Assembly (NCBI RefSeq): GCF_900129225.1
Contig: NZ_FQUG01000002.1
Location: forward strand, 1 to 64,000
Origin: Schwartzia succinivorans DSM 10502
GTDB lineage: Bacteria > Bacillota > Negativicutes > Selenomonadales > Selenomonadaceae
Reading direction: 5' to 3'
DNA: 64,000 nucleotides
This document shows positions 12,378 through 55,330 of the stretch, piece after piece (positions within the stretch are counted from its first letter, which is position 1; the number at the start of each line of letters is the position of its first letter). A program made the translations under genes and the position numbers. The notes beneath the pieces were generated by a model. That model worked only from the letters and a program-made list of their open reading frames with translations. It was not told the DNA's origin and made no database searches.

Positions 12378-12656
12378 ATCGTACAGAGAAAAAGCGAAGA
12401 ACCGGAAAAGTATCGTGCAGGGAACCGTTCAGAGAGCCGGAGCAGGTGGAAACCGGCCGGGGAGATGCGCAGGAAGTTCACCGGGGAGCTGCCCGTTCAG
12501 AGGCGTGAGTCAGCAGACGGAGCCGGAGCCTTTACCGTTAGAGGAAGGAGCCTGTCGACATATGTCCGCAGGTGAAGAGATATCCGCTTTGGCGGATGAA
12601 TCAGGGTGGTACCGCGAGCAACAGCCTCGTCCTTTGACAGGACGGGGCTTTTTTTA
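12378..12656 (+). ncRNA. T-box leader upstream of pheA, probably tRNA-Phe responsive
   Basis: The hallmark T-box AGGGTGGTACCGCG lies at 12603-12616. Its TGGT bulge would pair with a tRNA ending ACCA, consistent with tRNA-Phe. It is followed by an intrinsic terminator (12623-12649 stem, T-tract to 12656), and the T-box would pair with the terminator 5' arm in the antiterminated form. The upstream 220 bases fold into GC-rich stems as expected of stem I to III. A TTC triplet at 12477-12479 in a GAAGTTCAC context is a candidate Phe specifier, but the stem I alignment is not certain. Uncharged tRNA would allow read-through into pheA and aroF. Confidence 0.85.
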
Positions 12657-24203: not shown

Positions 24204-25049
24204 TTATTTGACTATGTGCTTGCCGCCGTACCAGTGGGATTTCCAGTAGGCCTTGTCGTTCAGCTCATCTATGCGGACACCCTTGCTGGAGGAAACGTGG
24301 ATGAATTTCCCGTTTCCGAGATAAAGTCCGCAGTGTGACGCGCCTTTTTCATAGGTGCTGAAAAATACTAGATCTCCGGGGACAAGCTCCTTCTGAGTTT
24401 TGATGTTTTTTCCAAGCTTATACTGCTCGTCGGCGGTGCGCGGAAGGGTGTAGCCGTTCTGCTTGAAGACATACTGTAAAAATCCCGAGCAGTCAAAGCC
24501 CTTTGGTGTAGTGCCGCCGAAAACGTATTTCGTACCGATGTATTTCTTGGCGGTGCGTATGACGGCATCGACCTTTCCTTTGTCAAGGAATGGAGAGCTT
24601 TCTGCGCCCTTTACTGAGGGGACAGGCTTTTCTGTCTTGGACGGAGCCGCAGGTTTTTCCGCTTTTGCGGGTGCTGCCGGCTTTTCTGTTTTTGCAGGTG
24701 CAGCAGGCGTCGCTTTTGTGCCGCTGTCGGATTTTTCATCTGCTTCGCTGCCTTCGTTCTTTTTGGGGGCAGACGGAATTTCCTTGAGCTTTTTCCATGT
24801 TGCGCGGTCAACGACTCCTGTGATTTTTATATCGTTGTCACGCTGGAAGGCTATGAGAGCTCTGTAAGTTTCGTTGCCAAAGATGCCGTCAACGGTGCGG
24901 ATGTTGTAGCCTGCGTCCTTGAGCGACTGCTGCACTATACGTACATCATGACCTTCTGAACCCTGCTTTAATATTGGCGCGGCAGAAGCGGCAGCCGTCA
25001 GCATGAAGAACAGCACGGCGGTCATTAAGATTGCTTTCAGGTGTTTCAT
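24204..25049 (-). CDS. Secreted NlpC/P60 peptidoglycan hydrolase with peptidoglycan-binding domain
   Basis: This 281-residue exported protein cuts peptide stems of peptidoglycan. Signal peptide: about residues 1-23 (ending AASAA). A peptidoglycan-binding-1 domain (about 25-88) has LKQGSEGHDVRIVQQSLKDAG and VDGIFGNETYRALIAFQ. An Ala/Pro/Lys linker with repeated KTEKPAAPAK units spans 100-150. The NlpC/P60 domain follows with Cys187 (GFDCSGF), His239 (SHCGLYLG) and a third polar residue near His251. The ATG has GAGGAA upstream; a longer frame without a site was rejected. Confidence 0.92.
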   Translation of the reverse strand: MKHLKAILMTAVLFFMLTAAASAAPILKQGSEGHDVRIVQQSLKDAGYNIRTVDGIFGNETYRALIAFQRDNDIKITGVVDRATWKKLKEIPSAPKKNEGSEADEKSDSGTKATPAAPAKTEKPAAPAKAEKPAAPSKTEKPVPSVKGAESSPFLDKGKVDAVIRTAKKYIGTKYVFGGTTPKGFDCSGFLQYVFKQNGYTLPRTADEQYKLGKNIKTQKELVPGDLVFFSTYEKGASHCGLYLGNGKFIHVSSSKGVRIDELNDKAYWKSHWYGGKHIVK

Positions 25050-25231
25050 GATAAATTCCTCTTTTAAAACAGTGCTGCGAAAAACCGGAGCACGAGAAAT
25101 CCTTCTTAATAAAGTATACCGCTGAATCATGAAATTTCCAAAGATAAAAAGAATAAAATTTTAAAAAAGAGTGACCGTATTCGTCTAATTATTAACAGGT
25201 TTATGTATATCGTGAAAAGACAGGAAAAAAG

Positions 25232-25328
25232 TTATACACAGGATATTGGGATAATTTATGGCTTTTTGGGTGCCTTATCCACAAAAATCCACATGTTTTT
25301 TGGACTTTGTGGATATTTTTGTGGATAA
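25232..25328. promoter_or_regulatory. Cluster of DnaA-box-like 9-mers
   Basis: TTATACACA (25232-25240), a perfect TTATCCACA (25275-25283), AAATCCACA (25285-25293), and on the other strand ATATCCACA (25308-25316) and a perfect TTATCCACA (25320-25328) lie within 97 bases. The sequence on the left (25110-25260) is very AT-rich. No dnaA or dnaN gene is in the window. The cluster lies between the NlpC/P60 gene and ilvA, outside any coding region. Whether DnaA binds here is inference. Confidence 0.55.
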
Positions 25329-25364
25329 ATAGAAGTAAATTTAAAGATACAATAAATAATATTC

Positions 25365-25404
25365 ATAAAAAAGAACTGTACACGGTTATGCTGTGCACAG
25401 TTCT
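25365..25404 (-). terminator. Intrinsic terminator after ilvA
   Basis: On the minus strand AGAACTGTGCAC pairs with GTGTACAGTTCT (one G-T pair) around nine bases, followed by TTTTTT. It lies 35 bases after the ilvA stop. Confidence 0.85.
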
Positions 25405-25438
25405 GTGGATTATTTTTTCTTATGGTGTAATTAGTCTA

Positions 25439-26680
25439 TTAATAAACTCTTTCTATGCTGAAACCGTTTTTCGTAAGTGCCCGTGTGATTTTCTCGATGT
25501 GGTCGTTGCCGTGAGTCTCACATGTTACTGTCAGGATTACCTTTTTGAAGAGATCCTTGACGAGGTCAGGGTTGTGGTCCAGCTTTATGACGTTTGCGTT
25601 CTCCTCGGCAAGTATCTGGGAGACCTTGAGAAGCTGTCCCGGTTTATCCGGCAGCGGTACGGAGAAGCAGAAGATGCGGCCGCGGGCAACGAGGGCCTTG
25701 TGTATGAGAGCAGAGATGGTCGATATGTCGATGTTTCCGCCGCTGATGATTGCGACGACCTTTTTGCCCTTCATGCGGAGCTTTGGAAGTGCCGCGAGGG
25801 AGAGTGCGCCCGCGCCCTCTGCTATGAGCTTGTGCTTTTCGATGAGAGAAAGCAGAGCGTCCATGATTTCGACCTCGGACACTGTGATGATTTCATCGAG
25901 ATATTTTTTGCAGAAGGCATAGGTGAGACTGCCTGCGGTTTTTACGGCGCAGCCGTCTGCCACAGTGTCAACGTATGGAAGGGTGACAATCTTGTCGGAT
26001 TTGAAGGCTGCTTCCATGCAGGCTGCTCCTGCGGGCTCAACACCGATTACCTTGACGTTCGGGTAGACCAGCTTTGCGGTGAGGGCAACACCGCTGGCAA
26101 ATCCGCCTCCTCCGATTGGAACGAGGATTGCGTCAACGTCCTTGAGGTCGTCAATGATTTCCTTTGCGGTAGTTCCCTGTCCGAGTATGACTTTTACATC
26201 ATTAAATGGATGGATGTAAACGTATCCTTTTTCCTTTTGGAGCTCAAGGGATTTTGCGTAGGCATCGTCGAAGGTGTCTCCGTGAAGGACGACCTCGGCA
26301 CCGTAAGCCTTTGTGGCTTCTACCTTCAAAATCGGAGTGGTGGCAGGCATGCAGATTACAGCCTTGACACCAAGCTTCTGTGCGGAGAAGGCTACACCCT
26401 GAGCGTGGTTTCCTGCGGAGGCTGTGATTACGCCTTTTTTTCTCTCGGCAGCAGTGAGCTGGCTGATTTTATTGTACGCTCCACGGAGCTTAAAGGAGCC
26501 TGTGGTCTGGAGATTTTCAGGCTTGAAATAGACTGTGTTGTCACAAAGGCTTGAGAAGTAAGGGCTTTCAATGAGCTTTGTTTTTACGGCTACTCCGTCA
26601 AGCTGCTGGGCAGCCTTGTATAAATCTGCGATGGTTGTTTTTTCCAGTATTGCCTGGATTTCTTCTGCGGTTTCGGGCAT
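25439..26680 (-). CDS. ilvA: Threonine ammonia-lyase (threonine dehydratase) with ACT domain
   Basis: This PLP enzyme deaminates threonine to 2-oxobutyrate, the entry to isoleucine or to propionate formation. The start chosen (MPETAEE) has AAAGGAGCG upstream and gives 413 residues. The PLP lysine is in TTGSFKLRGAYNKI; SAGNHAQGVAFSA and VPIGGGGFASGVAL are the phosphate and substrate loops. A single C-terminal ACT-type domain (about 330-413, SVPLPDKPGQLLKVSQILAE) suggests allosteric control. The length fits the TdcB-plus-ACT class rather than the 514-residue E. coli IlvA. Two palindromes overlap its promoter. Confidence 0.92.
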   Translation of the reverse strand: MPETAEEIQAILEKTTIADLYKAAQQLDGVAVKTKLIESPYFSSLCDNTVYFKPENLQTTGSFKLRGAYNKISQLTAAERKKGVITASAGNHAQGVAFSAQKLGVKAVICMPATTPILKVEATKAYGAEVVLHGDTFDDAYAKSLELQKEKGYVYIHPFNDVKVILGQGTTAKEIIDDLKDVDAILVPIGGGGFASGVALTAKLVYPNVKVIGVEPAGAACMEAAFKSDKIVTLPYVDTVADGCAVKTAGSLTYAFCKKYLDEIITVSEVEIMDALLSLIEKHKLIAEGAGALSLAALPKLRMKGKKVVAIISGGNIDISTISALIHKALVARGRIFCFSVPLPDKPGQLLKVSQILAEENANVIKLDHNPDLVKDLFKKVILTVTCETHGNDHIEKITRALTKNGFSIERVY

Positions 26681-26760
26681 GTTGTTGTTCGCTCCTTTAC
26701 ATTTACCCAGCAAATGTCTTTTCTCAAAGGACAACGCAGGGTGTAACTTCATACGTTCGT

Positions 26761-55080: not shown

Positions 55081-55330
55081 AGAACTGCATAAGAAAAGTT
55101 GACGGGGTAAGGATCCGTTAGGAGTAAAAAGGGAAGCCGGTGAGAAGCCGGCGCGGTCACGCCACTGTATGACGGAGTCGGTAGAAACTATGCCACCGAG
55201 GATGGGACGCTAGTCCGTATTTGGGAAGGCTTCTACACGGTAATGAGGTCGAGTCAGGATATCTGCCTGCCCAACAATCACCGTTTGCACCCGCGAGCGA
55301 AGGGGAAGGGGATTCATCAAATTGTATCGT
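55081..55330 (+). ncRNA. Cobalamin (adenosylcobalamin) riboswitch
   Basis: The conserved core is clear: AAAAGGGAAGCCGGTGAGAA (55126-55145), GCGCGGTCACGCCACTGTAT (55151-55170), GACGGAGTCGG, CCACCGAGGATGGGACGCTA and the 3' AGTCAGGATATCTGCCTG (55252-55269). It is followed by a terminator at 55331-55365, so high B12 should reduce read-through into cobI and the tetrapyrrole genes behind it. Confidence 0.93.

Follow-up and report, generated by a model that had tools for sequence, protein, structure and literature searches.

The window analysed here is a 64,000-nucleotide stretch of contig C13 of Schwartzia succinivorans DSM 10502 (genome G000). The first-pass annotation had placed a group of DnaA-box-like sites at 25232-25328, between an NlpC/P60 gene and ilvA, and this position is upheld: both genes are on the minus strand and the cluster sits in the gap between them, 25050-25438. 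The gap has a GC content of 27-34% in 100-base windows, in agreement with the AT-rich surroundings described earlier. The product of nlpC is 79% identical between the window and the genus-mate G001. For the open reading frame on the other side we kept the name ilvA, which follows the earlier reading and general background on the family. The features of the region, with boxes scanned at no more than one mismatch and weaker sites listed beside them, are as follows.

24204-25049, minus strand: nlpC, peptidoglycan hydrolase of 281 aa with PG_binding_1 and NLPC_P60 domains (Pfam PF01471, PF00877)
25113-25141, minus strand: candidate sigma-70 promoter for nlpC, TTGGAA-17-TATACT (consensus match only)
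25232-25240, plus strand: DnaA box TTATACACA, one mismatch; G001 has ATATCCACA at the equivalent place relative to the other boxes
25246, minus strand: weak site TTATCCCAA, two mismatches
25275-25283, plus strand: DnaA box TTATCCACA, perfect; kept in G001
25285-25293, plus strand: weak site AAATCCACA, two mismatches; the corresponding letters in G001 are AAATCAACA
25308-25316, minus strand: DnaA box ATATCCACA, one mismatch; second half of a tandem double box with a 3-bp gap; kept in G001
25320-25328, minus strand: DnaA box TTATCCACA, perfect; first half of that double box; kept in G001
25373-25403, minus strand: hairpin followed by a T run, likely the ilvA terminator (RNA fold and sequence)
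25404-25412, minus strand: outlying near box TAATCCACA, adjoining the ilvA terminator; found in G001 too
25439-26752, minus strand: ilvA, threonine dehydratase (ORF, true start possibly further in), whose 3′ end borders the cluster

Five box-like sites in 97 bases had been counted originally. The two perfect boxes in opposite orientation (TTATCCACA at 25275 on the plus strand and 25320 on the minus strand) stand as described, while the three near matches become two near matches and one or two weak sites. The cluster thus consists of at least four DnaA boxes in an intergenic gap outside oriC, as in the DBC type of B. subtilis. The earlier judgement that such a density is unlikely at random was borne out by Markov simulations, in which the observed clustering exceeds chance. 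Over the whole window the 18 sites with no more than one mismatch are a mild enrichment (shuffle mean 11.6, with 18 or more in 4 of 100 shuffles). Three or more boxes in 130 bp occurred in none of 200 first-order Markov copies of the window, compared with one occurrence observed. Since this null carries the GC content of the window, the simulation was repeated on the AT-rich gap itself (25050-25438, 30% GC), and among 50,000 Markov copies three held at least three boxes in 97 bp and none held four or more. The non-random feature is the clustering of the boxes, rather than their number across the window.

Conservation of the boxes in close relatives had been named at the outset as a point on which a DnaA-related reading would turn, and the boxes are kept in the single genus-mate compared, though not family-wide. 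In G001 all four boxes are found at spacings of 43, 33 and 12, identical to those of the window, and they are kept even though the matched stretch is only 71% identical. Genus g3 has a core of one plus-strand box followed after 21 bp by a minus-strand box and after another 12 bp by a second minus-strand box; it is present in 16 of 16 genomes, at most about 2.7 kb 3′ of ilvA. Averaged over pairs, column identity in this core is 0.97 in the boxes and 0.66 between them, falling to 0.45 in the 60 columns to the left and 0.50 in the 58 columns to the right, with the box value favoured by construction as the core was located with a regular expression that requires the boxes. Read toward nlpC, Schwartzia, G178, G128 and G179 have in common two plus-strand boxes 12 bp apart and a minus-strand box 32-34 bp further on. 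By eye, 16 of 16 g3 genomes have GTCAA some 20 bp ahead of the first box, displaced by a base in one of them, in otherwise variable surroundings.

The spacing between boxes was counted over distinct sequence contexts in all loci collected, oriC included; the values that come from related genomes are not independent of one another. Same-strand pairs are dominated by a 12-bp step (52 distinct pairs), followed by 20-21 bp (32) and 9 bp (15). Convergent pairs recur at 11, 21-23, 33-36 and 43-46 bp, and divergent pairs peak at 38-39 and 50 bp. These recurrent spacings suggest that the boxes may be placed according to helical phasing. The 12-bp step corresponds to a 3-bp gap between tandem boxes, and according to PMC11317965 E. 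coli DnaA in vivo is bound for the most part at double boxes whose gap is 2-3 bp.

The cluster is one of several on the chromosome. Perfect boxes were located throughout G000, where they number 51 against 16 for the reversed pattern, and boxes with one mismatch were sought within the stretches fetched. In these stretches clusters were found upstream of dnaA, between dnaA and dnaN, at cdd, AICARFT, cysK and nrdD, and at 25232-25328, giving at least five clusters outside the origin. The dnaA, cdd, AICARFT and nrdD genes are supported by Pfam; cysK belongs to the PALP family and was named by eye, as were rsmG, pfkA and dnaN. The clusters and their counterparts in other genomes are listed below.

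G000:C10:30548-30592 (L005 5549-5593): cluster 5′ of cdd (cytidine deaminase), with a CYTH-domain gene on the other side
G006:C4:65858-65922: cluster 5′ of cdd, in the same place in a second genus
G000, near rsmG: cluster 3′ of the AICARFT gene; a similar place in G006 (with pfkA in between) and in G140
G000:C10:138465-138642 (L007 4466-4643): seven boxes with no more than one mismatch just 5′ of the PALP-family cysteine synthase-like gene (cysK)
G000:C20:43475-43604 (L190 13475-13604): DnaA boxes 5′ of nrdD

In addition, three perfect boxes on one strand lie about 2.13 kb apart at G000:C7:48292, 50418 and 52553, perhaps within a repeated gene.

Similar arrangements are found across the family. 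Of 189 family genomes, 112 have a convergent pair of perfect boxes 5-35 bp apart, against 3 for the reversed control. Genus g11 (G051-G116) has such a pair in 0 of 66 genomes, compared with 112 of the other 123, and either an altered DnaA box or the loss of the clusters would explain this. Of the 30 loci that match nrdD best (L233-L262), 26 have at least one perfect box in the 400 bp before the gene, versus 0 of 29 on the 5′ side of ilvA. Sixteen genomes had been picked for having few contigs or for their interest, and the seven single-contig relatives among them that entered a count of distance to dnaA had 14 of 14 inverted pairs outside the origin within 0.34 of the half-chromosome from dnaA. 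This count left out the two-contig genomes G039 and G048, and the single-contig genomes G040 and G177 have no such inverted pair. In G006 the distance between dnaA and the g3 site by ilvA is 85 kb; in G005, G009 and G010 this site is 92-105 kb away from the oriC-type pair.

We think it probable that 25232-25328 is an extra-origin DnaA-box cluster of the B. subtilis kind, which would mainly titrate DnaA and perhaps also alter nlpC expression. Its parts are not equally firm. DnaA very likely binds the cluster; titration as the main role is somewhat favoured; and regulation of nlpC, which is compatible with titration, is less likely than not. Both the titration-type site and the DnaA-regulated promoter put forward in the first-pass annotation therefore stay live, supported by the conservation, the similar clusters family-wide and the box geometry. 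We favour titration as the main role on three grounds: there are several clusters, those of relatives lie near the origin, and one cluster sits 3′ of a gene. The proposed course of events is that DnaA would load first on the tandem double box at 25320/25308, across its 3-bp gap, and then spread cooperatively to the inverted boxes, which lie on approximately the same helical face, so that a compact DnaA complex would form between ilvA and nlpC. As one of at least five such sites, this complex could keep DnaA away from oriC, and origin-near sites would be copied soon after initiation, at which point free DnaA would be expected to fall. Bound DnaA may also modulate the nlpC promoter and could change expression of the cell-wall hydrolase, since the array is upstream of the promoter of nlpC or arsR-nlpC.

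The closest known counterpart is B. subtilis, whose clusters outside oriC, as described in PMC4447404 and PMC5295017, are several in number, intergenic and made up of at least four boxes each. Their listed coordinates put most of them near the origin; some occupy promoter regions and one separates two 3′ ends, and PMC4447404 attributes gene regulation to some of the DnaA sites. The Schwartzia clusters, known here as sequence features, adjoin other genes than those of B. subtilis (nlpC, nrdD, cdd, AICARFT and cysK). One passage of PMC5295017 reports that joint deletion of six extra-origin clusters led to early initiation, an effect that was strong only with all six gone, and elsewhere the same article states that in B. 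subtilis no cluster has been identified as having a significant role in the control of initiation. As both statements stand in one source, titration is a disputed role even in the model species. In E. coli, DnaA boxes are enriched near oriC, which PMC12371093 argues helps titration. Within the partly accessible literature on DnaA boxes together with Negativicutes, Selenomonas or NlpC, we found no description of such clusters. The present data extend extra-origin DnaA-box clusters to a Negativicutes family, the Selenomonadaceae, and provide a natural comparative set for asking whether the place of a cluster is kept by titration or by local gene control.

A second explanation is that the cluster is mainly an operator of the nlpC or arsR-nlpC operon, activating or repressing it and coupling the hydrolase to replication, with titration as a side effect. 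We consider this unlikely as the main role, and a serious rival nonetheless because the site follows the operon in several lineages. Of 62 genomes in which nlpC was matched and at least part of its upstream region was available, 21, representing 7 of 26 genera, have a cluster upstream of nlpC or arsR-nlpC: g1 (2/2), g3 (13/15), g5 (1/1), g10 (2/2), g18 (1/1), g25 (1/1) and g26 (1/1). One of the two g3 misses, G020, has only 71 bp upstream, and several other loci have less than 600 bp. Some nlpC matches are weak (76 to about 120 bits), partly because loci were cut, and orthology there is therefore unsure. In the other 41 of the 62 the region upstream of nlpC is free of clusters, and the same is true of most genera examined, which speaks against an operator. 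Among the 41 are all ten g19 genomes (0/10), in which arsR is upstream of nlpC in 10 of 10 and ilvA is in the same locus in 8, and the site is therefore not essential to the family. In g20, nlpC is preceded by a single perfect box and no cluster.

Where the neighbours are separated, the cluster tends to stay with the hydrolase. The single g18 genome has its cluster with arsR-nlpC, while ilvA, on another contig, has none in the 5 kb 3′ of it; in the single g25 genome the cluster is about 7.6 kb away from ilvA, yet beside arsR-nlpC. In G008, G013, G015 and G019 of genus g3, 1.6-2.7 kb lies between ilvA and the cluster, which remains by nlpC, and in the two of these four that were looked at closely the insert carries a gene that is AraC-like by eye. 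G016 shows the opposite, with an eight-box cluster that remains by ilvA and its best nlpC match elsewhere, a case that speaks against an operator. On the 5′ side of ilvA no cluster was seen in 29 of 29 loci (30 were taken, one of them too short). An element linked purely to ilvA was rejected as a rule, given the clusters of g18 and g25 that stay with arsR-nlpC, though G016 does the opposite.

The ilvA gene is matched in 188 of 189 family genomes, and on an ilvA tree of 51 genomes the cluster label needs six changes, against a shuffled mean of 15.6. G120 had been given the label of no cluster without a view of the region upstream of its nlpC; with it removed, leaving 46 scored genomes, six changes are again needed; G020, G043, G125 and G186 are in the tree unscored, and G012 is outside it. 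The tree is compatible with one old gain followed by losses or with several gains, and cannot separate them.

The promoter evidence for an operator is mixed. The double box at 25308/25320 has a gap of 3 bp and is near a promoter, itself a consensus-match candidate, and the stretch has 5 promoter-like sites versus 2.0 in shuffles. A TATACT-type −10 follows the cluster in the window and, by eye, in G009, G014, G179 and G049, but it was not seen in G005, and the distance from cluster to promoter varies; in the window the cluster starts about 90 bp upstream of the candidate −35.

The other clusters bear on the same question. Those 5′ of nrdD and cdd suit a DnaA regulon, whereas the AICARFT cluster lies on the 3′ side, a place where the gene would not be expected to have its promoter. 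As clusters stand beside functionally related genes (nrdD, cdd and AICARFT), a regulon fits as well as a titration set does. The tandem boxes 3 bp apart resemble the double boxes of the E. coli DnaA regulon (purH, nrdD, polA and others) in the portion of PMC11317965 available, and elsewhere in G000 the 5′ region of nrdD and the neighbourhood of the purH-domain (AICARFT) gene have clusters, as in that regulon. Unlike E. coli purH, the Schwartzia AICARFT cluster is 3′ of its gene, and unlike the E. coli regulon, the window site is at a gene, nlpC, that is not named as bound in that portion of PMC11317965. The same source reports that E. coli DnaA binds at nrdD. Together with the nrdD boxes in 26 of the 30 best-matching loci, this suggests that DnaA is tied to anaerobic dNTP supply across phyla. 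A tentative extension, for which the chances are well below even, is that DnaA directly times the arsR-nlpC hydrolase operon in some of the Selenomonadaceae, as part of a wider regulon that includes nrdD and cytidine deaminase. If true, this would connect the start of replication with both dNTP supply and the cutting of the cell wall in a diderm Firmicute.

Returning to the preferred reading of a titrating cluster, two further explanations start from the same boxes. As a non-coding site with at least four boxes outside oriC, the cluster resembles E. coli datA and DARS, and a titration or reactivation site of this type had been offered as an option earlier. However, the E. coli elements act together with IHF or Fis, and B. 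subtilis control is placed at DnaA oligomerisation and not at nucleotide state in the available part of a review (PMC5295017), so that we regard a datA- or DARS-like element that changes the nucleotide state of DnaA as very unlikely.

Even less probable is an RNA hairpin or terminator whose arms resemble DnaA boxes by chance. The convergent boxes do fold well (z of −5.6 and −5.3 on the two strands), and a base beside one box changed together with its partner between the window and G001. Against this, a consensus scan of the stretch for terminators (loop limit of 8) listed no such site, the spacings in g3 are different and a fourth box there is outside any core stem, and an RNA structure would not account for same-strand pairs or helical phasing. 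The hairpin or terminator was rejected despite its good fold, in view of the missing terminator-like site and the spacing that differs between genera.

The last proposal concerned the origin itself, and depends on where dnaA and the GC-skew switch are, a check that we ran on the assembly. On C10 the GC skew in 10-kb bins is negative in the seven bins from 0 to 70 kb and positive from 70 kb on; dnaA is at 73.7-75.1 kb, and the sign change falls between the 60-70 and 70-80 kb bins. Box clusters are found on both sides of dnaA, one upstream and one between dnaA and dnaN. The window is positive in 6 of 6 10-kb bins and in 60 of 63 overlapping 2-kb windows, the other three being slightly negative, and there is no sign switch at 25232-25328. 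The idea that the site is a displaced part, or the second half, of a bipartite origin has a negligible chance of being correct: several boxes do adjoin an AT-rich stretch, and, as a likeness to the bipartite oriC of Firmicutes, the 12-bp tandem spacing is the same as in the boxes upstream of dnaA in G000, but the skew switches at dnaA on C10, the contig of dnaA and dnaN, where dnaA has its own clusters, and does not switch here, on another contig. The cluster is not an origin, nor the second half of one.

The description of the cluster as far from dnaA holds at contig level, with dnaA on G000:C10 and the window on C13, while the chromosomal distance cannot be fixed from the assembly. The last 20 kb of C13 are also positive in GC skew, and because the window and the end of C13 are both positive, the start of C13 is presumably its origin-near end. 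On that assumption contig arithmetic gives a minimum of about 99 kb between the cluster and oriC, and a maximum that is only loosely bounded. Apart from the cluster, Rfam places a T-box leader at 12388-12637 and a cobalamin riboswitch at 55088-55284 of the window.
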